NCBI GenBank assembly: GCA_945874665.1
Contig: CAMCHJ010000001.1
Coordinates: 62,001 to 126,000 of the forward strand
DNA from: Chitinophaga pinensis
GTDB lineage: Bacteria > Bacteroidota > Bacteroidia > UBA7662
DNA: 64,000 bases
Reading direction: 5' to 3'
Shown: positions 28,657 to 40,696 of the stretch, piece by piece
Layout of the letters: each line of letters opens with the position of its first letter
Position numbering within the stretch: the stretch's first letter is position 1
Made by a program: the position numbers and the translations under genes
Notes under the pieces: generated by a model
Seen by the model: only the letters and a program-made list of their open reading frames with translations
What the model was told of the DNA's origin: nothing
Databases searched by the model: none

Positions 28657-31455
28657 TCAAAGACGGAAGACAAAGGACCCACTCCACATTACGCCACGGC
28701 GAAAATGCATGATGAGGTCGTCGGGACTATCTGAATTGTAGTCGTATTCGATTTTGTCATTCCGATCAGTGTCCTGTACTAAAAGTGTTCGGGCATTAAA
28801 AATGTTGCTAATGCCAAACTTAATATCCACCCTTGCATTCATCTTTTTAGTCATTACCAAATCTAACATGTGCCGTGGCAATTCGTAAACCGTTGGGAAG
28901 TTGTCGTTGCCTACAAAGAAAATACGCGGACCAGCCACATTGTACAATAAACTCATGCTATTGCCACGCTCATCATCTCGATAATGCAGGCCCGCATTTA
29001 CTACATAAGGCGATTGCCCTTGCAACGGCCGAATTTGGTCTTGTGCTAATTCTCCCTCACCACCTAAATCAACTTCTGTATAAATGTAGGAGGCGTTGGC
29101 TACAAGGAAAAAGCGACTGATGAAAGACTTCGAGGTTACGTCTCCAAGCGATTTACGCACTTCAACCTCAGCACCAAAATTTTCAGCAGAAACCGCATTG
29201 TCGAGTTTGAACTGCTGACTTAGGCCAACTGACTGTACGTATGTTTCGATAGGATTTTGAAAGCGCTTGTAAAACACCCCAACGCTAAAGGTTTCGTTAT
29301 TCTGCGGGTACATTTCCCAACGCAGATCGATGTTTTGAATATCCGATTGAATCAAATTAGGTTCACCCACAAAGTTTACGTCGTACTTAAAGTTGTAGTA
29401 CAAAAAGGGCGCAAGTTCACGTAACTCAGGACGATTTACCGTGCGGCTATAGGCCAATCGCACTAACCCTTTGTCATTGATGGTGTACGACAAATTAGCG
29501 AACGGCATGGGCGTTGGGTAGTTGTTGTTGATGTTTAGTGCTTCGGTTTGGGTAGCGCTGTTGAGCTGCTGATTGAAATACTCAAAGCGGAAACCTGTTG
29601 ATAAGTTGAATCTTCCCATTGGGATATCAGCTGCGGCATAGGCTGCGGCCAAAGTAGTATTGGCATCGTACCTGTCAGAAGGATTGGTGCCTTCTATCAA
29701 ACGCCAGCCATCTACTCTGCTGATGTTGGCCGGGTCAAATACCTCGCCTATTGGTAAGCGCACCAAACGCGTTTTAGTAGTCGGGTCACCAAAACCAGGA
29801 TAAGCATACGACATCCAGCGTGCTTCAAATGTTCTGTACTTATAATCGAAATAAGTACCGGCTTTGAGGGTAATGGTTTCCTTTTTTTCGGGATCGCCGA
29901 GCTTGCGCTCAAAAGCTAGGCTGTTACTGCCGCCGAACTCATTTAAACGAGAGAAAAAGCGGGCGTTGTCAAATAAAGCAGCACCGGGAGGGTCGATAAT
30001 GGTGTAAGGCGCATCTGGGTTGTCGATAGGGCGTGTGCTGCGCACCCGGCGAAAATCGGGTTCATTACGTGTTACGAATGAACCGCCTGCAATCCAAGTA
30101 AACTTACTGCGCTTATCTGCTGAGGTGTATTCGCCTTCTAATTGCGTGGTGGCGATGGTACGACTGAGGTACTGAAAGCTGTAGTTCAGGTATTCGTCGC
30201 CCAAGCGCTGTTGCGGCTCCACGCCACGGCGGATGATGGTACTGCGTTCACCGATTTGGTTAAACGTATTTCTCCAAGTGTAGCGCGCACGCTTGCTGGC
30301 GATTAAGTGAAAGTTACTGATGATGCCCACGCGAACTTCCGTTTCCATTTGTTGGTCTTCATAATCGAACATCACCGCACGCGAGGCATCAAATCGATTG
30401 CGCTCTACTTCGAGATGCTGCTGGCCCTGACCATAATTTACCGATGTCAAATTAGAGGCGTTTTTACCAAACATTTGAAAATTACGCCCAATAGTGAACC
30501 CAAGTTTGAAGTCAGGAAGCGTAAACTCGTTATTCACTTGAAAATTGTTCGATAGTGTTTTGCCGGCAGCCTCTACTTGATCTGCTGACAGGTTATTGAG
30601 ATTCTCTGTAAAGTCTTTCGGAAGCGCCCTTCCTCTATCAAAACCGAGAAAATCAGTTTTACCAGCACGATTTACTTGGTAAGTATTAAACGTAGTACCC
30701 TGGCGATAACCCAAGCCAAAATTCACTTCTGTGATGTCGTACTCAGGTGCAATTTTTGTGTACAATTTGATAACGCCGCCAGCGAAATCACCAGGCAAAT
30801 CGGCAGAACCCGATTTATAAATTAGCATGCGGTCCATAACCGAGCTCGGCAACAAGTCAAAAGAGAAGGCACGTGAATCAGGCTCGGTGCTCGGCGTAGA
30901 AATGCCATTGAGCATAACGTTGTTGTAACGCTGACCTAAACCACGGATCATTACAAAGCTATTATCAACAATGGTAACACCCGGAACGCGTGAGGCCACC
31001 TGCGCGGCATCCTTATCAGGCGAACGTGAAATCTCTTGACTCGACACGCCCGATACCACTTGCGTTGCCTGCTTTACTTCCATCAAAACAGCTGCTTCGG
31101 TATAGGTAATGCGATCAGCAACAATTTCAACAGCCGATAATTCGGCTATGTCTTCTTGCAAAACAATGTTTAAATTGGCTATTTGTCCTGCCACCACCTG
31201 CACCTGCATCTCCTTTGGTTTAAAGGATATGTAAGAAACGAATAGGGTATAAGTGCCTGGTTTTACATTTCCAATGTTGTATTTACCATCAAAATCGGTT
31301 GAGGAACCGATGTTTGTGCCTTTAATGATTACGTTAACGCCAATCAATGGCATTTTTGATTCATCTGTAACGATGCCTTTTATGCCCCCATTTTGAGCAA
31401 AGGCGGATGAAATCGTTAAGAAAAAAAGAAGCAGTGAGCGTAAAATTGGTCGCAT
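28657..31455 (-). CDS. TonB-dependent outer-membrane receptor with carboxypeptidase-regulatory-like domain
   Basis: A 932-residue outer-membrane transporter. A signal peptide (about 1-20, ending AFAQ) precedes a CarboxypepD_reg-like domain (about 22-105, GGIKGIVTDESKMPLIGVNV). The plug follows (about 130-235, with RVPGVTIVDNSFVMIRGLGQRYNNVMLNG), then a long beta-barrel ending in SGSFVFRL with the terminal aromatic-x-Leu pattern. Substrate is unknown; it lacks the SusC signature and no SusD gene is adjacent. The ATG at 31455 directly precedes the signal peptide, and the longer in-frame start lacks support. The neighbouring beta-helix lipoprotein may be its surface partner. Confidence 0.92.
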   Translation of the reverse strand: MRPILRSLLLFFLTISSAFAQNGGIKGIVTDESKMPLIGVNVIIKGTNIGSSTDFDGKYNIGNVKPGTYTLFVSYISFKPKEMQVQVVAGQIANLNIVLQEDIAELSAVEIVADRITYTEAAVLMEVKQATQVVSGVSSQEISRSPDKDAAQVASRVPGVTIVDNSFVMIRGLGQRYNNVMLNGISTPSTEPDSRAFSFDLLPSSVMDRMLIYKSGSADLPGDFAGGVIKLYTKIAPEYDITEVNFGLGYRQGTTFNTYQVNRAGKTDFLGFDRGRALPKDFTENLNNLSADQVEAAGKTLSNNFQVNNEFTLPDFKLGFTIGRNFQMFGKNASNLTSVNYGQGQQHLEVERNRFDASRAVMFDYEDQQMETEVRVGIISNFHLIASKRARYTWRNTFNQIGERSTIIRRGVEPQQRLGDEYLNYSFQYLSRTIATTQLEGEYTSADKRSKFTWIAGGSFVTRNEPDFRRVRSTRPIDNPDAPYTIIDPPGAALFDNARFFSRLNEFGGSNSLAFERKLGDPEKKETITLKAGTYFDYKYRTFEARWMSYAYPGFGDPTTKTRLVRLPIGEVFDPANISRVDGWRLIEGTNPSDRYDANTTLAAAYAAADIPMGRFNLSTGFRFEYFNQQLNSATQTEALNINNNYPTPMPFANLSYTINDKGLVRLAYSRTVNRPELRELAPFLYYNFKYDVNFVGEPNLIQSDIQNIDLRWEMYPQNNETFSVGVFYKRFQNPIETYVQSVGLSQQFKLDNAVSAENFGAEVEVRKSLGDVTSKSFISRFFLVANASYIYTEVDLGGEGELAQDQIRPLQGQSPYVVNAGLHYRDDERGNSMSLLYNVAGPRIFFVGNDNFPTVYELPRHMLDLVMTKKMNARVDIKFGISNIFNARTLLVQDTDRNDKIEYDYNSDSPDDLIMHFRRGVMWSGSFVFRL

Positions 31456-31636
31456 TTGGCCTAAAAACTTTGTGCAAAGGACAACTTCGTATGTTATGTA
31501 AATGTTAAGTAGCTGTAAACAAATAATCAACTGCCTCTTGTAACGCTGAACACTAAACATCTCACTGCAAATACGTTGAAGTTTCTTATGCTAGTGCTAA
31601 AATACGCGCAGGAGGTGCAACCATATAGAAATTCAA

Positions 31637-31644
31637 TATCTTCG
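31637..31644 (+). promoter_or_regulatory. -7-like box (TATCTTCG) for the lipoprotein at 31667
   Basis: One mismatch to TAnnTTTG, 22 bases before the ATG. Confidence 0.35.
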
Positions 31645-31666
31645 TTTATTCAATCCTTATTTAAAG

Positions 31667-32155
31667 ATGAAAAAGCTACTTTTTTTAAGCCTTTTGACAG
31701 GCTTTTTGTTTGTGGGTTGCAAAAAAGAAGACCCTAAAACTCCTGAAGAAATTTATTCAGAGCGCTTGGATGGTCGCTGGAACGTGGTATCACTAAACTA
31801 TACGGCTTCCATAGCTTTTCCACCGCTGCCTGCTATTCCTATTGTAGGCACCAGCGCCAATGCAGGCAGCATTACCTTCAATCATGCTGCGAAGACTGCT
31901 AGCTATGACATTAAGTTTTTACCCAACATTCCGGCTATACCTGGTATCAATATAGATACTGTTCGTTTGAATGGCAGCGGCACGTATTCGAACACCCTCA
32001 CCAACATCACGCTCACCGAAACCAATGGTCAGCTTTTGGTATTTAATGTGGTTGCCAATGAAGCCAATTTGCAACTGCTCAATACACAACTCAATTATCA
32101 ACTCGACAGCACGACTACGGTTCCGGTAACCCTAGAAATGCGGTTAGGTAAATAA
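31667..32155 (+). CDS. Small lipocalin-like lipoprotein
   Basis: A 162-residue lipoprotein (hydrophobic about 4-16, lipobox FVGC with Cys18). The mature domain begins LDGRWNVVSLNYT, the typical opening of lipocalin-like DUF domains in Bacteroidota. It contains two Pro-Ile repeats (PPLPAIPIVG and NIPAIPGI), and the rest alternates Thr/Asn-rich strands. It is divergent from the TonB receptor, so the two share an upstream region. The ligand is unknown. A terminator follows. Confidence 0.8.
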   Translation: MKKLLFLSLLTGFLFVGCKKEDPKTPEEIYSERLDGRWNVVSLNYTASIAFPPLPAIPIVGTSANAGSITFNHAAKTASYDIKFLPNIPAIPGINIDTVRLNGSGTYSNTLTNITLTETNGQLLVFNVVANEANLQLLNTQLNYQLDSTTTVPVTLEMRLGK

Positions 32156-32175
32156 TTTCTTAGAAAAAACACCTC

Positions 32176-32205
32176 AAGGCCTGTGTAACCCCACAGGCCT
32201 TTTTT
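32176..32205 (+). terminator. Rho-independent terminator of the lipocalin-like gene
   Basis: A 10-bp perfect stem (AAGGCCTGTG 32176-32185 with CACAGGCCTT 32192-32201) with a T-run that passes into the next -7 box. Confidence 0.9.
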
Positions 32206-32212
32206 ATTTTTG
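32205..32212 (+). promoter_or_regulatory. Bacteroidota-type -7 box (TATTTTTG) for the arginase-like gene
   Basis: Exact TAnnTTTG match, 14 bases before the ATG at 32227. Its first T is the last T of the terminator run. Confidence 0.5.
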
Positions 32213-32226
32213 ACCAAAATACGCTC

Positions 32227-33402
32227 ATGCTCGACACCCTGCTTGCCCCCCTCGACCACAGTCAGTTTTTTGAACAAGACGCCTATCTTGCCAATACCTT
32301 CGGCGCGAAGGTTCAAAAGCATCTGACTACTTTCCCTTCGCTCGAAGGCGTGAAGCTTGCCATCATTGGCGTACAAGAAGCGCGGCAACAACCCGATAAC
32401 CCTGGTGCAGCGCATGGTGCCGACTTCATCCGCCAGGAGTTTTACCGGCTGTTTTGCATGGATACCGATTGCGAAATCGTTGATTTAGGCAATATTTTGC
32501 CTGGGCACAGCGTGCCAGATACCCATGTGGCCTTGCGAGAAGTATGTTGGAGCTTGATCAAACAGCAAATCATCCCCATCGTTTTAGGAGGCAGTTCTGA
32601 TATGGCTTACGGCCAATACCTTGCCTACGCACAATATGACAGCACCATTGACCTGGCTGCCATCGACGCACGCTTTCATTTGAAAGATGATGGCGCAGAA
32701 ACGATGACCAATGCCCAGAATTTTTTATTTAAAATCATTGCCCACCAGCCCAGTCACCTGTTCAACTACGTGAATTTGGGTTATCAGTCTTACCTCGTTG
32801 ACCGCGAAGAAGTGCGCCTGCTTGAGAAACTCTTCTTCGATGCTGTGCGCCTTGGTGAAGTGCGCGCCAATATGGAGGAAGCTGAACCTTACTTACGTGC
32901 TGCCGACATGCTGTACATCGATGTTGCAGCCATTCGCAAAGCCGATGCGCCTGGTAACCCACTCGGCTCCCCCAACGGTCTGTTTGCGCATGAGCTTTGT
33001 CAACTCACCCGCTACGCCGGCTTAAGCGATAAACTCAGCTCTATCGGATTTTACGAATACGACCCGGGTAGCGATCGTCAATTGGTAACTGCAGCCACCC
33101 TGGCGCAAGCCATTTGGTACTTCATAGATGGTTATGTAAACCGCATGAACGACCAGCCCAAAGTAAAAACCCGCACTTTTATCAAATACACAACGACTTT
33201 AAAGGCCGGAAAGCACGACTTAGTGTTTTATAAAAGCAAAAAATCAGGGCGCTGGTGGATGGAAGTTACGCTGCCTCCCATCAAAGGAAGTAAAAAGGAG
33301 CGCACACATTTGGTGCCGTGCTCATACAACGACTATTTGATGGCTGGTAAAGACGAATTGCCCGACAAATGGTGGAAATTTCACCAGAAGTACATGGTTT
33401 AA
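32227..33402 (+). CDS. Arginase/formimidoylglutamase-fold protein with degraded metal site
   Basis: A 391-residue ureohydrolase-fold protein of a kind often labelled formimidoylglutamase in Bacteroidota. The metal-ligand motifs are altered. GGDHS is replaced by GGSSD (121-125). The DAHxD motif reads DARFH (147-151). SxDxDxxDP becomes IDVAAIRKADAP, keeping Asp232 and Asp240. Only about two of six Mn ligands remain, so normal arginase chemistry is doubtful. A Lys-rich C-terminal extension (about 300-391, with KSKKSGRWWMEV) is absent from classical arginases. The gene is convergent with murF. The fold call is good; the function is open. Confidence 0.8.
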   Translation: MLDTLLAPLDHSQFFEQDAYLANTFGAKVQKHLTTFPSLEGVKLAIIGVQEARQQPDNPGAAHGADFIRQEFYRLFCMDTDCEIVDLGNILPGHSVPDTHVALREVCWSLIKQQIIPIVLGGSSDMAYGQYLAYAQYDSTIDLAAIDARFHLKDDGAETMTNAQNFLFKIIAHQPSHLFNYVNLGYQSYLVDREEVRLLEKLFFDAVRLGEVRANMEEAEPYLRAADMLYIDVAAIRKADAPGNPLGSPNGLFAHELCQLTRYAGLSDKLSSIGFYEYDPGSDRQLVTAATLAQAIWYFIDGYVNRMNDQPKVKTRTFIKYTTTLKAGKHDLVFYKSKKSGRWWMEVTLPPIKGSKKERTHLVPCSYNDYLMAGKDELPDKWWKFHQKYMV

Positions 33403-33458
33403 GTCTATTCAAATTATCTCCCTGCAACAACATCCAGCAGCACAGCCGCAGGACTCGC

Positions 33459-34778
33459 CTAAGCTAAAGTCACGTAGTTTTCCATGGCCATACCCCGGGA
33501 GCCTTTCACCAACACCACGGCCTCTTGCCAGCGGTTAATGGGTTCAGCGGCTTGCAAACTGGCCAAATCTCCATAAAAACGAAAGGCAGGAAAGGCCGCA
33601 GCATGCGCACCAAATAGGGGGCCGCATAACAGTACCTCTTCAATGCCCTTTTCTTGCAACAGGCTGAGCAGGGCCAAATGTTCGGCTTCAGCGGCATCGC
33701 CCAACTCAAACATATCCCCAAAAATGGCCACCCGCTTGTTTGAACGAATGCCCGCCAAATTTTCAACGGCGGCTTGCATGCTGTGTGGATTGGCGTTGTA
33801 GGCATCGAGAATGATGCGATTGCCATGCAACTCGAGCAGCTGCGAACGATTGTTGGCCGGCTCGTAACTGGCCAAGGCCTCATTAATTTTATGGTAGGGC
33901 ACGCTCAAGTGACGAGCAATGCAAGCAGCCGCCAATAGATTCACAAAGTTGTACCGCCCATACAATCTGGTTTCAATTTGTGGAGCACGCAGCATCAAAC
34001 GGTAGCTGTTTTCCCACTGAAAGCGCAACTGCCAGTCAGAGTCGAGCAATCGCCCCACGCAATCCGCCTCCTTGTCTTCACCATAATAAATGGCCGAACG
34101 CAACTTGACAGTATAGGCCATCAAATCGGTGTTTTCGTAATGCACAAAGGCCTGTCCGCCGGTTTGCGCTAAATATTTGTACAATTCGCACTCGGTTTCG
34201 ATGATGGCCTCAAGACTGCCGAAGCCTTCTAAATGCTCTTTACCGACCGAGGTCACCACCCCAAAATCGGGTTGGGCTATTTCACACAACGGCATCACTT
34301 CGCCGGGGTGATTGGCGCCCATTTCGATCACCGCTACTTCAGTATCTAACGGCATGCGCAGCAGGGTAAGCGGCACGCCAATGTGGTTGTTGAGGTTGCC
34401 GGGGGTGGCCCAGCAGCGGTAATGACTGCCGATGGCGACTTTTAGCAGCTCCTTGGTAGTGGTTTTGCCATTTGAGCCTGTTACACCGATTACTTTAAGT
34501 CCGGGCAACTGCCTTCTATGATGTGCAGCAAGCTGTTGTAATGCTTCCAAAACATCATCAACCAATATAAAGCGGTCGGTTAACCCAACTTGAGGCTCAT
34601 CAATAACCACCCATGATGCGCCTTGCTCAAGCGCCCGTTCGGCAAATAAATTGCCGTTAAAACTGGGGCCTTTCAACGCAAAAAAGAGGTCTCCTGCCTT
34701 GATATTGCGGGTATCAGTGGTAAAAGCGCCGCTTTGGGCCTGGAAATGCTCGTATAAGGTAGAAATGGTGTCTTTCAT
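33459..34778 (-). CDS. murF: UDP-N-acetylmuramoyl-tripeptide--D-alanyl-D-alanine ligase
   Basis: A 439-residue Mur ligase that adds D-Ala-D-Ala to UDP-MurNAc-tripeptide, the last cytoplasmic step of peptidoglycan precursor synthesis. It opens with the N-terminal MurF domain (STDTRN-like FTTDTRNIKAGDLFFALKG), then the ATP loop GVTGSNGKTTTKE (near 98-110). The Mg/carbamate region includes EMGANHPGE, and the C-terminal domain has LDAYNANPHSM and FGDMFELG. All key blocks are present. No other mur gene is adjacent; murB is at 61 kb. Confidence 0.94.
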   Translation of the reverse strand: MKDTISTLYEHFQAQSGAFTTDTRNIKAGDLFFALKGPSFNGNLFAERALEQGASWVVIDEPQVGLTDRFILVDDVLEALQQLAAHHRRQLPGLKVIGVTGSNGKTTTKELLKVAIGSHYRCWATPGNLNNHIGVPLTLLRMPLDTEVAVIEMGANHPGEVMPLCEIAQPDFGVVTSVGKEHLEGFGSLEAIIETECELYKYLAQTGGQAFVHYENTDLMAYTVKLRSAIYYGEDKEADCVGRLLDSDWQLRFQWENSYRLMLRAPQIETRLYGRYNFVNLLAAACIARHLSVPYHKINEALASYEPANNRSQLLELHGNRIILDAYNANPHSMQAAVENLAGIRSNKRVAIFGDMFELGDAAEAEHLALLSLLQEKGIEEVLLCGPLFGAHAAAFPAFRFYGDLASLQAAEPINRWQEAVVLVKGSRGMAMENYVTLA

Positions 34779-34967
34779 AAAGGATGCCGCTGAAATAGGA
34801 TGGCTAAATTCGTAAAAAACGAGTTTATAACCGCTGAATAGTCATTAAATATCCTGCTTTTTGCGTTTTAACATTTTTTCCTGCCCTCATCAATCCTAAA
34901 AAGCAAATAGCCCAACCCCAAATCGATTAAATTACGATTAAAAGGCAGTTCACATCTTACCAATAGT

Positions 34968-34975
34968 TACCTTAG
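34968..34975 (+). promoter_or_regulatory. -7-like box (TACCTTAG) for the FG-GAP protein
   Basis: One mismatch to TAnnTTTG, 13 bases before the ATG. Confidence 0.3.
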
Positions 34976-34988
34976 AGAAAATTGTTTT

Positions 34989-37202
34989 ATGAGAAAACTG
35001 CTCCTATTACTCCTGCTACTTTCGGCCCAGCAAATGGCCAGCGCGCAGTTTTTTCGTTTTGAGCCCTATGGAGCAGTAGGCGTGCAGCAAAATGGCTACA
35101 CCTTAAAATACCCGTGGGTAGGAGGCTTGGCAGCACCTCAATTCCAAGAAATAGACATGGATGGGGATGGCATTGAGGACTTGGTTGTTTTTGATCGGGT
35201 AGATGAAACTACCACCGTATTGCTTCGAAAAATGGAAAGCGGCGTTTATCGGTGGGTGCCTGCTCCTGATTATGCGTACGCATTGCCAAAGATTCGCGAC
35301 TGGTTTTATTTGATTGATCTGAACGGAAACGGTCGCAAAGACCTGTTCACCGGTTCAAATGGTGGTGTTACCATATACGAGAACGTTGGCAATGGACCCA
35401 GACCTGCTTTTGTATTAAGAACACCCGCCCTAGATGTGCTGTGGGATTTTGGCTTCAGAGCTGGTATTTTGGTAATGAACATCGACCGGCCTGGCATTGC
35501 TGATTTTGATGGAGATGGAGATGTGGACATCATTTCATTCGACAATTTCGACATCGGTAAGGTTACCCATTTCCGCAACATGTCGGTGGAGCGGTATGGC
35601 CATGCCGACTCTCTCGACTATCAGGTTGTTTCGCGTTGCTGGGGAAGGTTTGAGGAGAGCCAGTTCAATTCGAACATCACCACTGGACTAGCGGCCAATT
35701 GTTTTGCCCCGCTCCCTATGCCAGGTGTGGTGGCGCGTGTGCAACACATCGGCTCTACCATTACCCCCATCAACGCCGATAAAGACAGTCTGATGGACAT
35801 TTTACTCGGTGATGTAGAGGCATCGAGTTTGAAATATCTTCGCAATGGAGGAAGCAACGACACTGCACGCATCACGCAAGTATTCAATAGCTTTCCGCAT
35901 TATGATACGCTGAGCGAGGTGAGGATTTTTCCTGCAGGTTACCTCATTGATGTTGATTATGATGGCCGCAAAGACTTGGTTATTGCCCCGAACGACTATT
36001 ATGCCTCCTCCCTCACCAAGCATGTGTGGCATTATCGTAACCAGAGCACTTCGCTGCGAGATTCATTTCGTTTAGTGAGCAAGGCATTTTTAATCGAAGA
36101 CATCCTGCAATACTACACCAATGCTGCACCGTTGGCAGTAGATATTACCGGCGACGGCAAGCAGGATCTCCTCGTAGCCTTTGAAAACGGCCAATACAAG
36201 GGGGTTGTGCATTACTACCAAAACATTGGCAGCGTAGCAGAGCCCTTGTTTAATTTAGTGGATACTAGTTTTTTGCAGTTAGATAGTTTAAACATTCGGT
36301 TTCCAAGAATGGCGGGTGGCGACATAGACGGCGATGGCAAACAGGATTTGCTCATTGGCACTTTTGATGGTCCTATACTCCACTACAAAAACACGACAGC
36401 CAACGGAATCCTCGCATTTAACCTGGAAAGCACCAATTTTCAGCAATTGAGTTTACAAAATGCTAGCGCCCCTGAATTAGTTGACCTCAATAGAGATGGC
36501 AAACTCGATTTATTGATAGGTACACGTTCGGGCGAGGTGCAGTACCGCCAAAACATTGGCACTACAACCCTACCGCTGTTTAGTTTGATTACCAATACCC
36601 TGGGCAACGTGCGCGTTTCCAGTTTTTTCACTGGATTTGCTGTGCCACGGGTTTCCGACTTTAATGCCAATGGCAACTACGACCTGATGGTAGGCGCTGA
36701 GAATGGCAAGGTCTACTTTTATCCCGATATTGAAGGCAACCTAACAGGCACCTTTGCCAATCGCAGTTTGGCTTTTTTCTACCCCAACACCGGCATTTAC
36801 GACAGTACCAGACATACCCTTTATGCCACACCTACAGTTGCCATGCTGAATGGCGACACGCTGCCAGACATACTCATTGGCACCTTCAGAGGGGGTGTTG
36901 TAGCCTTTAAAAACAGCTTAAGCAATGTCAGCGTGCCTCATTTAGGGGTTCAGCTACCGAAAATAAAACTATATCCTAATCCAAGTACGGATGGCCTCGT
37001 CAACATAGCTGTTGAAGCGTCTGATGCACCTATTGCTGACATCCAGCTGTATGATTTGCAAGGCAGGCTATTGGAGCGTTTTCGTTTTACAGGACTTGAA
37101 TCGGCTGTGCAATTACAAACGCAAAGTACAGGCTTACTGCTAGTGCGCATTCAGCTTCAGGATGGACGGTGCGCGCACGAGCGCTTCGTAGTACAAAGGT
37201 AA
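34989..37202 (+). CDS. Secreted FG-GAP/VCBS-repeat protein with T9SS sorting domain
   Basis: A 737-residue exported protein. After a signal peptide (about 1-19, ASAQ) come about ten calcium-binding-loop repeats of the form D-x-D/N-G-D/N-x-x-D-L/I, for example DMDGDGIEDLVVFD, DLNGNGRKDLFTG, DFDGDGDVDII, DITGDGKQDLLVA, DIDGDGKQDLLIG and DLNRDGKLDLLIG. Such repeats usually form a beta-propeller. The C-terminal 80 residues are a type A T9SS sorting domain, starting with IKLYPNPSTDG and ending KGxxx-like YDLQGRLL and LLLVRIQLQDG, so it should be cleaved and attached at the cell surface. Binding partner unknown. Confidence 0.9.
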   Translation: MRKLLLLLLLLSAQQMASAQFFRFEPYGAVGVQQNGYTLKYPWVGGLAAPQFQEIDMDGDGIEDLVVFDRVDETTTVLLRKMESGVYRWVPAPDYAYALPKIRDWFYLIDLNGNGRKDLFTGSNGGVTIYENVGNGPRPAFVLRTPALDVLWDFGFRAGILVMNIDRPGIADFDGDGDVDIISFDNFDIGKVTHFRNMSVERYGHADSLDYQVVSRCWGRFEESQFNSNITTGLAANCFAPLPMPGVVARVQHIGSTITPINADKDSLMDILLGDVEASSLKYLRNGGSNDTARITQVFNSFPHYDTLSEVRIFPAGYLIDVDYDGRKDLVIAPNDYYASSLTKHVWHYRNQSTSLRDSFRLVSKAFLIEDILQYYTNAAPLAVDITGDGKQDLLVAFENGQYKGVVHYYQNIGSVAEPLFNLVDTSFLQLDSLNIRFPRMAGGDIDGDGKQDLLIGTFDGPILHYKNTTANGILAFNLESTNFQQLSLQNASAPELVDLNRDGKLDLLIGTRSGEVQYRQNIGTTTLPLFSLITNTLGNVRVSSFFTGFAVPRVSDFNANGNYDLMVGAENGKVYFYPDIEGNLTGTFANRSLAFFYPNTGIYDSTRHTLYATPTVAMLNGDTLPDILIGTFRGGVVAFKNSLSNVSVPHLGVQLPKIKLYPNPSTDGLVNIAVEASDAPIADIQLYDLQGRLLERFRFTGLESAVQLQTQSTGLLLVRIQLQDGRCAHERFVVQR

Positions 37203-37325: not shown

Positions 37326-38237
37326 ATGTCGGTTAAAGTACAGGATCTTACTAAAATTTACGGAACTCAAAACGCCATCGACCACATCAGCTTCGACATT
37401 GCTGAGGGTGCGATTGTAGGTTTGTTGGGCCCAAATGGTGCGGGCAAAAGCACCACCATGAAAATTCTAACCGGTTTTATTCCTCAAAGTAGCGGACAAG
37501 CATGGGTGCATGGGTACAACGTGGCGGAAAACAGCTTAGAAGTGCGCCGCCTTACTGGCTACCTGCCCGAAAGCAATCCTTTGTATACCGATATGTACGT
37601 GCAAGAATATTTGCACTACGTAGCTGGTTTTTACCAAGTAGCGCGCAAGTCGGCTCGGGTCAAAGAAATGATCGATATCACCGGTTTGGGCATAGAGCAG
37701 CATAAAAAAATTGGCCAACTATCAAAAGGTTACCGCCAACGAGTAGGCTTGGCGCAAGCCATGATCCACGACCCGAAGGTGTTGATTTTAGACGAGCCTA
37801 CATCGGGCCTGGACCCTAACCAATTGGTGGAAATTCGTAAGCTGATTATTGAAATTGGTAAGCAAAAAACCATCATCCTCAGCACCCACATCATGCAAGA
37901 AGTGGAAGCCATGTGCGAACGCGTCATCATCATCAATCGTGGCAAAATGGTAGCCAACGACAGCGTGGCGCAACTCCAAAAAAGGGCAACGGGTGCGGCG
38001 AGTGTGCAGGTGGAGTTCAGCGCAGCGGTAGAAGCAGCAGTGCTCAAAAAATTGCCTGGTATTATCGACGTCAAAAACGAAGGCGGCAACCGCTGGCTGG
38101 TAAGTGGCAATGCCAAAGCCGACATCCGCAAGCTGCTGTTCGACTTTGCTGTTCAAAAGCAACTAACCGTTTTGAGTCTCAACCAACGCGAAAACTCCCT
38201 TGAAGAAGTATTCCGTGAATTAACCCGTAAAAAATAA
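37326..38237 (+). CDS. gldA: Gliding-motility ABC transporter ATP-binding protein GldA
   Basis: A 303-residue ABC ATPase: Walker [15 protein letters not shown] (33-46), signature LSKGYRQRVGLAQA, Walker B VLILDEPTSGLDPNQ and H-loop STHIMQE. The C-terminal extension after about 210 is typical of GldA-like drug-exporter-type ATPases. GldA, GldF and GldG form a transporter needed for gliding in some flavobacteria but present in many non-gliding Bacteroidota. The gene is followed by gldF after three bases. The three-gene order supports the assignment. Confidence 0.92.
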   Translation: MSVKVQDLTKIYGTQNAIDHISFDIAEGAIVGLLGPNGAGKSTTMKILTGFIPQSSGQAWVHGYNVAENSLEVRRLTGYLPESNPLYTDMYVQEYLHYVAGFYQVARKSARVKEMIDITGLGIEQHKKIGQLSKGYRQRVGLAQAMIHDPKVLILDEPTSGLDPNQLVEIRKLIIEIGKQKTIILSTHIMQEVEAMCERVIIINRGKMVANDSVAQLQKRATGAASVQVEFSAAVEAAVLKKLPGIIDVKNEGGNRWLVSGNAKADIRKLLFDFAVQKQLTVLSLNQRENSLEEVFRELTRKK

Positions 38238-38240
38238 GGC

Positions 38241-38969
38241 ATGTTCACTGTTTTTAAACGCGAAATCAGCAGCTTCCTCAGCTCCCTCATAGCCTACATT
38301 GTAATTGTGGTGTTTTTATTGGTAACGGGATTGTTTATGTGGGTGTTTCCCGACTACAGCCTGCTCGACTATGGTTACGCCAGTCTCGACCAACTTTTTG
38401 TAATTGGCCCTTGGCTGTTTATGTTCCTCATTCCCGCCATCACCATGCGTTTTTTCTCCGAAGAAAAGCGCACAGGCACCATTGAACTGCTGTTTACCAA
38501 ACCAGTTACCGATTTACAAATCATCCTCGGCAAGTTTTTGGCAGGCTTTGCGCTGGTTATTTTTGCCGTGCTGCCTACCGTTCTTTATGCCATCACCCTT
38601 TGGTTTCTGGCCGACCCTGTTGGCAACATAGATACTGGCGGTATATTAGGCTCCTACATCGGCCTGCTTTTGCTTGGTGCAGTATTCGTGAGCATAGGTA
38701 TTTTTGCATCGGCCATCACCGACAATCAAATTGTGGCGTTTATCCTAGGTTTGTTCCTTTGTTTTTTCATGTACAGTGCCTTCGATAGCTTAAAGCTGCT
38801 GAACTTGCCAGTTAAGACCCAGCTCATTCTTGAGCAATTGGGCATCAGTTCACACTTCTACGCCATGGGCAAGGGTGTAATCGACACCCGCGATTTGGTT
38901 TATTTTGGAAGTGTAATTAGTCTTTTTGTGATGTTAACTAAAACCGTTTTGGAGAGTAGAAAATGGTAA
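38241..38969 (+). CDS. gldF: Gliding-motility ABC transporter permease GldF
   Basis: A 242-residue ABC-2-type inner-membrane permease with six hydrophobic segments. The N-terminus FTVFKREISSFLSSLIAYIVIVVFL and the RFFSEEKRTGTIELLFTKPVTD loop are characteristic of GldF and relatives. It partners GldA (upstream) and GldG (downstream). The last seven bases overlap the gldG start. Confidence 0.92.
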   Translation: MFTVFKREISSFLSSLIAYIVIVVFLLVTGLFMWVFPDYSLLDYGYASLDQLFVIGPWLFMFLIPAITMRFFSEEKRTGTIELLFTKPVTDLQIILGKFLAGFALVIFAVLPTVLYAITLWFLADPVGNIDTGGILGSYIGLLLLGAVFVSIGIFASAITDNQIVAFILGLFLCFFMYSAFDSLKLLNLPVKTQLILEQLGISSHFYAMGKGVIDTRDLVYFGSVISLFVMLTKTVLESRKW

Positions 38970-40696
38970 AATCGCAAAAAACCAGCCGCTCCAACCGCAG
39001 CCAGTCTTTGGTGCGCATTACCCTGCTGCTCGCCATTCTCATTGTAATCAATGTATTAGCGAGCTTTGTGTACACGCGTTTTGACCTCACCCGAGAGCGC
39101 CGCTATTCATTGGCGCCAGGTACAAAAGAGTTGCTTACGGGCTTGAAAGACGTGGTTTACATCAAAGTATATCTGGAGGGCGATTTTCCTCCGGGGTTTC
39201 AGAAACTACAAGGCTCGGTAAAAGACATGCTTGCCGAAATGCGGCGTTTGGCTGGCGGGAATTTGGAATTTGAGTTTGTAAATCCCGCCGACCAGCCTAC
39301 CGAATTGGCCACCAATCAATTGTACGAGCAATTATACAAATTGGGATTGCAGCCTACCGATTTGCAGAACCGCACAGCTGATGGCATGGCACGCAAAGTC
39401 ATTTGGCCAGGCGCTGTGGTTTATTACCGCACCAAAGAAGTCGCCTCTAACTTTTTATTAGGTGCCGGCGCAGGTGGCAGTCCGATGGAAATCATCAATG
39501 CTTCCGAAGAAGCCCTCGAATACACCCTGGCCAACGCCATCAAAAAAGCCACCAGTTTATACAAGCCCCGCATCGCCTTTACCGATGGGCACGGCGAGCT
39601 TGATGGCGTGGCCACCAGCGACATTGCTCGGGCGTTGAGTGAATTTTACACGCTGCAGCGCTATGATGTAAAAAGCATTGAGGCCGTTCCGCAAGACATC
39701 AACCTCTTGGTAATTGCCAAGCCTACGCAAAAGCTTACCGATTGGAGCAAGTATAAAATCGACAACTTTATCATGCGCGGCGGTAAGGTATTGTGGCTGT
39801 TGGATGGCGTGGGTGCGGCTATGGACAGCATGAAGACCGATAACTTCTTTATGGCCATGCCAAATCAGCTCGGTTTAGACGATATGTTGTTCAAATACGG
39901 CGTTCGAATCAACTCCGACCTGATTCAGGACGTAAAAGCATCGCGCATTCCGATTGTTTACGGTACGTTGGGCGGTCAGCCGCAGCAGAAGCTCTTTCCC
40001 TGGTTTTACTTCCCACTCATTAGTGGCGAAACCCAGCACCCGATTGTACGTAACCTCGACCCCATTGCCTTCCAGTTTGTAAGCAGCATCGATGTGGTGG
40101 ATGCACCTGGTGTCGACAAATCGATACTCTTACGCAGCAGCAACCTCAGCCGCAAACTCATGGCACCCGTTCGGGTAAACCTCCAACTGGCTACGGAGCA
40201 AAGCAAGGAGGAACAGTTTAACAAGCCCAATCAAAATGTGGCAGTACTCTTGGAAGGCCAGTTCCCCTCTTTCTTTAAAAACCGCTACCTCAACGAATTT
40301 GCTCAAAAAGCCATCGATTCGCTTGGAATGTCGCAAAAAGAAGTCAGCGTAAAAACCAAAATGATTGTGATTTCGGATGGGGATGTGATCCGTAACCATG
40401 TTCGAAAAAACTCACAGGAAATTTACCCGCTGGGTTTTGACCGGTATACCAACCAGATGTATGGCAACAAGGTGTTCCTGATGAATGCCATCGACTACTT
40501 ACTTGATGACGCTGGGCTAATCAACGTACGCTCCAAGCAAATCACCTTACGGATGCTGGATGGCAAAAAAGTAAGTGAACAACGCAGCCGCTGGCAAGCC
40601 CTCAATTTAGGCTTACCCGTGGTACTATTACTCATTTTTGGTTTCGGCCGAAACCAATGGCGCAAACGCAAGTATGCGCGCAAACAACTCTCTTGA
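38963..40696 (+). CDS. gldG: Gliding-motility-associated ABC transporter substrate-binding protein GldG
   Basis: A 577-residue protein with an N-terminal membrane anchor (about 17-37), a large periplasmic ABC_transp_aux-type domain (FDLTRERRYSLAPGTKELL onward) and a C-terminal membrane helix (about 546-562, LGLPVVLLLIFGF). It contains the family block SEEALEYTLANAIKK. This gene forms the third component of the GldAFG transporter; its substrate is not known. The start overlaps gldF by seven bases and the stop overlaps the next gene by one base (TGATG). Confidence 0.92.
   Translation: MVKSQKTSRSNRSQSLVRITLLLAILIVINVLASFVYTRFDLTRERRYSLAPGTKELLTGLKDVVYIKVYLEGDFPPGFQKLQGSVKDMLAEMRRLAGGNLEFEFVNPADQPTELATNQLYEQLYKLGLQPTDLQNRTADGMARKVIWPGAVVYYRTKEVASNFLLGAGAGGSPMEIINASEEALEYTLANAIKKATSLYKPRIAFTDGHGELDGVATSDIARALSEFYTLQRYDVKSIEAVPQDINLLVIAKPTQKLTDWSKYKIDNFIMRGGKVLWLLDGVGAAMDSMKTDNFFMAMPNQLGLDDMLFKYGVRINSDLIQDVKASRIPIVYGTLGGQPQQKLFPWFYFPLISGETQHPIVRNLDPIAFQFVSSIDVVDAPGVDKSILLRSSNLSRKLMAPVRVNLQLATEQSKEEQFNKPNQNVAVLLEGQFPSFFKNRYLNEFAQKAIDSLGMSQKEVSVKTKMIVISDGDVIRNHVRKNSQEIYPLGFDRYTNQMYGNKVFLMNAIDYLLDDAGLINVRSKQITLRMLDGKKVSEQRSRWQALNLGLPVVLLLIFGFGRNQWRKRKYARKQLS

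Follow-up and report, generated by a model that had tools for sequence, protein, structure and literature searches.

Ligand positions of arginase-fold proteins are numbered here as in rat arginase I, in which the six metal ligands stand at positions 101, 124, 126, 128, 232 and 234, Mn-A being held by H101, D124, D128 and D232, and Mn-B by D124, H126, D232 and D234. Histone deacetylases keep the Mn-B site, the mirror image of a pocket reduced to Mn-A, and a Trypanosoma brucei arginase-like protein is reportedly a member of the family that evolved without the binuclear cluster. Formimidoylglutamase HutG (TIGR01227; PDB 3m1r, 1xfk and 4mxr) has the arginase fold and is the nearest relative, by sequence and by structure, of the protein family described here, for which we use the working name HutG*. 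Arginase-family pseudoenzymes are already known: MetCb, a subunit of metformin hydrolase, acts as a protein binder (PMC11271267). Reuse of an enzyme fold has also been described for PorK, a hub in the ring of the type IX secretion system (T9SS) (PMC12421860).

In the window, i.e., the whole stretch of 64,000 nucleotides that was analyzed, we found an intact HutG* reading frame of 391 codons (Table 1). The encoded protein scored 68.5 bits against the PF00491 profile (cut-off 22), which places it in the arginase/ureohydrolase superfamily, and its AlphaFold2 model, built on 34 relatives, had a pLDDT of 91.9. Formiminoglutamases and metformin hydrolases were the best structural matches of the model, with the T. 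cruzi formiminoglutamase 4mxr at the top (Z 37.8, rmsd 2.0, 279 aligned); the closest solved relative by sequence was the Bacillus subtilis formimidoylglutamase 3m1r. These results bear out the initial annotation, which had proposed an arginase-family protein encoded by an intact gene. The label formimidoylglutamase does not fit this protein, since it reached only 87.9 bits with TIGR01227, under the equivalog cut-off of 229.15.

Table 1. Features of the HutG* locus, in positions of the window; ligand numbers follow rat arginase I
Feature	Position	Strand	Evidence
Terminator-like hairpin before the HutG* gene	32176..32201	+	also in L031-L033
HutG* gene, probable arginase-fold pseudoenzyme, 391 aa	32227..33402	+	frame, profiles, AlphaFold2 model, structural matches
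GGSSD, residues 121-125; S124 where the His101 ligand belongs	32587..32601	+	alignment
DARFH, residues 147-151; D147 kept (124), R149 for His126, H151 for Asp128	32665..32679	+	alignment
E220-P221-x-x-R224, near-invariant in HutG*, in few or none of the canonical relatives	32884..32898	+	conservation count
IDVA, residues 231-234; D232 kept, A234 for Asp234	32917..32928	+	alignment
HutG*-specific C-terminal domain, residues 308-391, containing W343 and C365	33148..33399	+	model, alignment, conservation
murF, convergent with HutG*	33459..34778	-	TIGR01143, over cut-off
Protein with T9SS type A sorting domain	34989..37202	+	TIGR04183
gldA	37326..38237	+	TIGR03522, over cut-off
gldF	38241..38969	+	TIGR03518, over cut-off
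gldG	38963..40696	+	TIGR03521, over cut-off

The metal site of the window protein was compared with that of 15 canonical relatives, of which two are encoded in the same genome as the window. Its six ligand positions read S-D-R-H-D-A. Of the canonical rows, 12 read H-D-H-D-D-D and each of the remaining three deviates at one position. Two of the six ligands were left, D147 and D232, and a His stood in place of one Asp ligand. The motifs GGSSD and DARFH were present as the initial annotation had read them, and its estimate of about two remaining ligands agrees with the alignment; the third motif, which it had likewise called altered, is so by the loss of one Asp ligand and not of both. Its suggestion that motifs are altered in other Bacteroidota proteins as well proved right. 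None of the 103 HutG* rows kept all six ligands. In the main group of 57 relatives (the window clade with four members, family f4 with five, and family f6 plus L062 with five were counted apart; f-numbers are families from automatic grouping), D124 was found in 57, D128 in 54 and D232 in 57, and position 101 was Gln in 39, His in 17 and Asn in 1. The ligands that serve Mn-B only were gone, with H126 in 3 of 57 and D234 in none, and both positions vary freely. The 32 proteins of the Bacteroidales-like order (from 34 loci, L131 having no separate HutG* frame and L151 being the gldKLMN locus of the window's genome) showed D124 in 28, D128 in 22, D232 in 23, H126 in 1 and D234 in none. Most HutG* members carry three Asp together with Gln or His, more ligands are gone in the window's clade, and nothing of the Mn-A set is left in the five f4 proteins. 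The replacements of the window protein themselves did not prove common to its relatives: His at 128 combined with Ser, Arg or Ala at 101 was confined to the window protein, L031 and L032; L033, their next relative, has His101 and Asp128. Three strongly degenerate proteins (L070, L071 and L073; 277-335 aa) keep the C-terminal domain and lack the region of the GGxxD motif.

Given these missing ligands, binuclear hydrolysis by HutG* is very unlikely. Catalysis with one metal or none appears possible, because the Mn-A aspartates are kept in most of the family. HutG* could be a repurposed enzyme or sensor whose pocket handles a new small molecule, a single metal being held by the Mn-A aspartates and His/Gln101, or Lys/Arg126 replacing the cation. 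The retention of D124, D128 and D232 in the main group speaks for this explanation, as does the pairing of Gln101 with Lys/Arg126 in 30 rows, whereas 10 of the 18 rows with His101 have some other residue at 126 (counts uncontrolled for ancestry), which looks as if a side chain replaced the lost cation. However, f4, f6, the window clade and some of the Bacteroidales-like proteins have a broken Mn-A set while the rest of the protein is conserved there, and we consider an enzyme or sensor unlikely, though by no means negligible.

The HutG* family is nearly universal in the window's class. Matches were found in 136 of 296 genomes of the phylum, and HutG* itself in 69 of the 73 sampled genomes of the class, the window's genome included (counted from the match table); the four class members without it are G190, G230, G238 and G249. 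The names Bacteroidia, Flavobacteriaceae-like and Bacteroidales-like used for these groups derive from gene content and from named relatives (Sphingobacteriaceae, Bacteroidetes MAGs). Among the matches listed for the other 223 genomes of the phylum, none extends past residue 316, and the four sampled from them (L068, L069, L111 and L112) have ligands of the canonical type. In a tree computed without the ligand columns, HutG* formed one clade apart from canonical HutG (branch 1.44, SH-aLRT 99), the tree being a quick one that carries a long-branch warning and omits L070-L073. Near the window the protein appears to be under purifying selection, with a dN/dS of 0.030 (NG86) or 0.040 (YN00) against L031 at saturated dS.

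Residue conservation was counted in 96 HutG* rows, the less degenerate members of the family (L062, L070-L073, L149 and L150 were left out). W343, W297, R69, R224, Q187, G88, G251, E220 and D86 stood at 100% after rounding, and P221, C365, C258 and R208 at 97-99%. In the 15 canonical rows, R224, R208 and C365 occurred in none and E220, C258, W297 and W343 in 7%, canonical rows being mostly gaps at the residues of the C-terminal domain. Constraint in HutG*, as judged from these alignments, has shifted away from the metal site. The single clade, the presence in nearly the whole class, the low dN/dS and the near-invariant residues agree with the initial view of a conserved new role instead of decay, as far as sequences can tell, and HutG* is probably a conserved pseudoenzyme.

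The C-terminal domain (residues about 308-391) lies outside the region covered by the ureohydrolase structural matches. In the window protein it is rich in Lys (15 in 84 residues, pI 9.8), as initially described; this is no trait of the family, and was ruled out as such, since the pI of the domain is above 8 in only 26 of 71 members. Nothing in Pfam scored over a cut-off with the domain, comparison with PDB sequences gave no significant match (best E 0.25), and a structural search gave nothing convincing (Foldseek E >1, best Z 4.5). These failed structural matches are not proof of a new fold, because the model of the domain alone had a pLDDT of 77. Within the window's clade the domain is 88-98% identical versus 63-91% for the core; across the class the values are 42.6% versus 44.4%.

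Upstream of the gene, the exact sequence of the terminator-like hairpin occurs once in the window's whole genome. The hairpin is near-identical in all four members of the window clade, in which the remaining spacer diverges, and it may be an attenuator. A promoter of the gene's own, stated in the initial annotation, is no more than putative: no sigma-70-type promoter site was found just upstream of 32227. A Bacteroidota-like -7 box, TATTTTTG, as judged by the Bacteroidota -7 consensus, lies at 32205-32212, after the hairpin and 15 nt before the start codon. Rfam gave no match within 30000-36000 of the window. A small lipoprotein-like ORF on the same strand (31667-32155), for which no NCBIfam match was found, precedes the hairpin and lies beside HutG* in four of four clade members.

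In many genomes the HutG* gene lies near gliding and secretion genes. In the window, gldA, gldF and gldG start 3.9, 4.8 and 5.6 kb downstream, and gldKLMN of the same genome lies on a different contig. The usual order in family f5 is topA-HutG*-gldK-gldL-gldM-gldN, where the gap from topA to HutG* is often 3 nt and that from HutG* to gldK 52-268 nt. In the Bacteroidales-like order, GldM was encoded 3.5-5.5 kb from HutG*, on the same strand and always downstream, in 57 of 87 genomes with known coordinates of both genes (150 HutG* rows, 102 GldM rows). The loci read in this order mostly showed topA-HutG*-porP-gldKLMN, PorP being confirmed in 10 of 10 tested; this gene-order sample is not unbiased, since 20 of the loci were chosen for GldM near (18) or missing (2). 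HutG* is encoded in the neighborhood of the core T9SS operon in f5 and in many genomes of the Bacteroidales-like order, and the window has only gldA, gldF and gldG near. Near HutG* in L033, L070 and L071 are murF, a GldJ-type gene and a PorP-type gene, and in L073 murF and a GldJ-type gene (GldJ was the best profile for the L033 and L070 genes, though below its cut-off). In other families HutG* is next to dacB, nqrF, thioredoxin-like or glycosyltransferase genes. The dacB (PBP4-like) cluster gene follows HutG* closely in L051, L059, L060 and L061, with a 4-nt overlap in L051, and is a second peptidoglycan neighbor besides murF (window clade, f6).

For the Bacteroidales-like order, co-occurrence with T9SS/gliding genes was investigated across 246 genomes, with HutG* called by the C-terminal profile. 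HutG* was found in 168 and GldM in 226 of them. HutG* was present in 163 of the 226 GldM-positive genomes (63 lacked it) versus 5 of the 20 GldM-negative ones, a comparison that ancestry can confound. It tracked GldJ (at E<=1e-70; 161/181 vs. 7/65) and GldG (165/195 vs. 3/51) more closely than GldM. On a GldM tree of 60 genomes, hand-picked from the 226 for family spread among those with coordinates, HutG* changes 5 times, GldJ 2 times and GldG 6 times, with 2 to 4 well-supported independent pairs; these are too few, so that shared ancestry can explain the raw numbers. Families f12, f120, f123, f135 and f137 lack HutG* in GldM-positive and GldM-negative genomes alike, and G190 and G249 have GldM and GldL and no HutG* match. 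Among the GldM-negative carriers, G344 has GldL at a contig end and G490 and G497 have GldJ and GldG, and the absence of GldM from these three is probably due to assembly gaps. In G464 (a single contig) and G514, no match to GldM, GldL, GldJ or GldG was found and topA-HutG* is kept; their HutG* proteins (L149 and L150) are degenerate and 330 aa long. Loss of HutG* together with T9SS had been expected, and the raw counts seemed to bear this out; the counts are not independent of ancestry, however, and these two genomes speak against the expectation. T9SS exists without need of HutG*, and HutG* without strict need of T9SS.

The same loci bring in DNA topoisomerase I, to which HutG* could be coupled as a partner that modulates or stabilizes TopA. 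Directly upstream of HutG*, often 3 nt away, is topA, in f4 loci too, and it adjoins HutG* also where gld genes are not nearby, including the T9SS-less L149 and L150, a point that counts against the T9SS reading as well. On the other hand, topA is not adjacent in the loci of the window clade, f2, f3, f6, f9 and f10, nor in L159, L162 and L163, and since topA is universal, the order may be inherited only. We hold a TopA partner to be quite unlikely; a role in T9SS/gliding is our leading guess from gene order, and TopA the second place to look.

A third possibility is that HutG* serves a canonical ureohydrolase as a subunit without catalytic activity, in the way that MetCb serves MetCa. The window's genome encodes two ligand-complete ureohydrolases, one arginase-like and one agmatinase-like, and the MetCb precedent (PMC11271267) also points this way. 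Against it, a scan of loci for close homologs showed no canonical gene adjoining HutG*, and HutG* is the sole PF00491 match in 4 of 63 genomes (G099, G138, G214 and G261; all f2), by which a general partnership with canonical ureohydrolases is largely rejected; this makes the explanation highly improbable. A decaying gene without function, which the ligand losses ongoing in several lineages could suggest, is rejected as hardly credible: the frames are intact, selection is purifying and nearly all genomes of the class carry the gene.

We tentatively prefer to see HutG* as a class-wide family of arginase-fold pseudoenzymes, most likely a soluble protein-binding scaffold or regulator, in a T9SS/gliding context suggested by gene order; taken as a whole, we give this somewhat less than even odds. 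HutG* would have split off from an ancestor of the formimidoylglutamase type and given up the Mn-B side of the binuclear site, a loss after which no ureohydrolase chemistry is to be expected. It would have gained its own C-terminal domain and the near-invariant E220-P221-x-x-R224, R208, C258, W297, W343 and C365, and would use the E-P-x-x-R region together with its C-terminal domain to bind partners. The precedents of MetCb and PorK favor the scaffold or regulator reading. The context of HutG* would be the T9SS/gliding machine; in many genomes the HutG* gene stands ahead of the core operon of this machine, (porP)-gldKLMN. Other gene-order evidence in favor comes from gldA, gldF and gldG close to HutG* in the window and from GldJ-type genes close to it in L033 and f6 loci. 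The analysis showed the fold (by prediction), the ligand losses, the single clade, the conservation and the gene order; from these we infer that hydrolase activity is absent and that the protein binds other proteins, and the T9SS link is a guess. A bolder form of the preferred reading, which we think rather doubtful, makes HutG* a cytoplasmic T9SS/gliding accessory throughout the class and a second retired enzyme fold, in the same gene neighborhood as the FGE fold of GldK: the pocket would have been cut to Mn-A only and later abandoned by several lineages, with binding taken over by the new C-terminal domain and the E-P-x-x-R patch.

By profile, HutG* is closest to an enzyme whose activity is very probably absent, and would mislead annotation of the histidine pathway. 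It is a candidate accessory of a secretion/gliding machine that is important in the phylum, and would show clearly how the members of a binuclear enzyme family can lose first one metal site and then both. In the literature searched, which leaves many subscription papers and all preprints outside, no description was found of a HutG*-type family with its own C-terminal domain and neighborhood; within the same limits, no paper was found on formimidoylglutamase with gldK or Flavobacterium, on the arginase family with type IX secretion, or on arginase with a gldL and gldM operon, and one paper was listed that mentions both formiminoglutamase and gliding motility.

Compared with known systems, HutG* differs from HutG in falling under the TIGR01227 cut-off, in lacking the Mn-B ligands and in having an extra C-terminal domain. 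The T. brucei arginase-like protein is eukaryotic and confined to one lineage, unlike the class-wide HutG*. MetCb, like HutG*, has an arginase fold with lost ligands, five of the six being changed and no metal seen; it adjoins its active paralog (PMC11271267), whereas HutG* had no adjacent active paralog in the loci read. PorK/GldK, with its repurposed FGE fold, is thought inactive and is encoded in the same gene neighborhood as HutG*; its fold is unrelated, and it is, unlike HutG*, a demonstrated part of the T9SS ring (PMC12421860).
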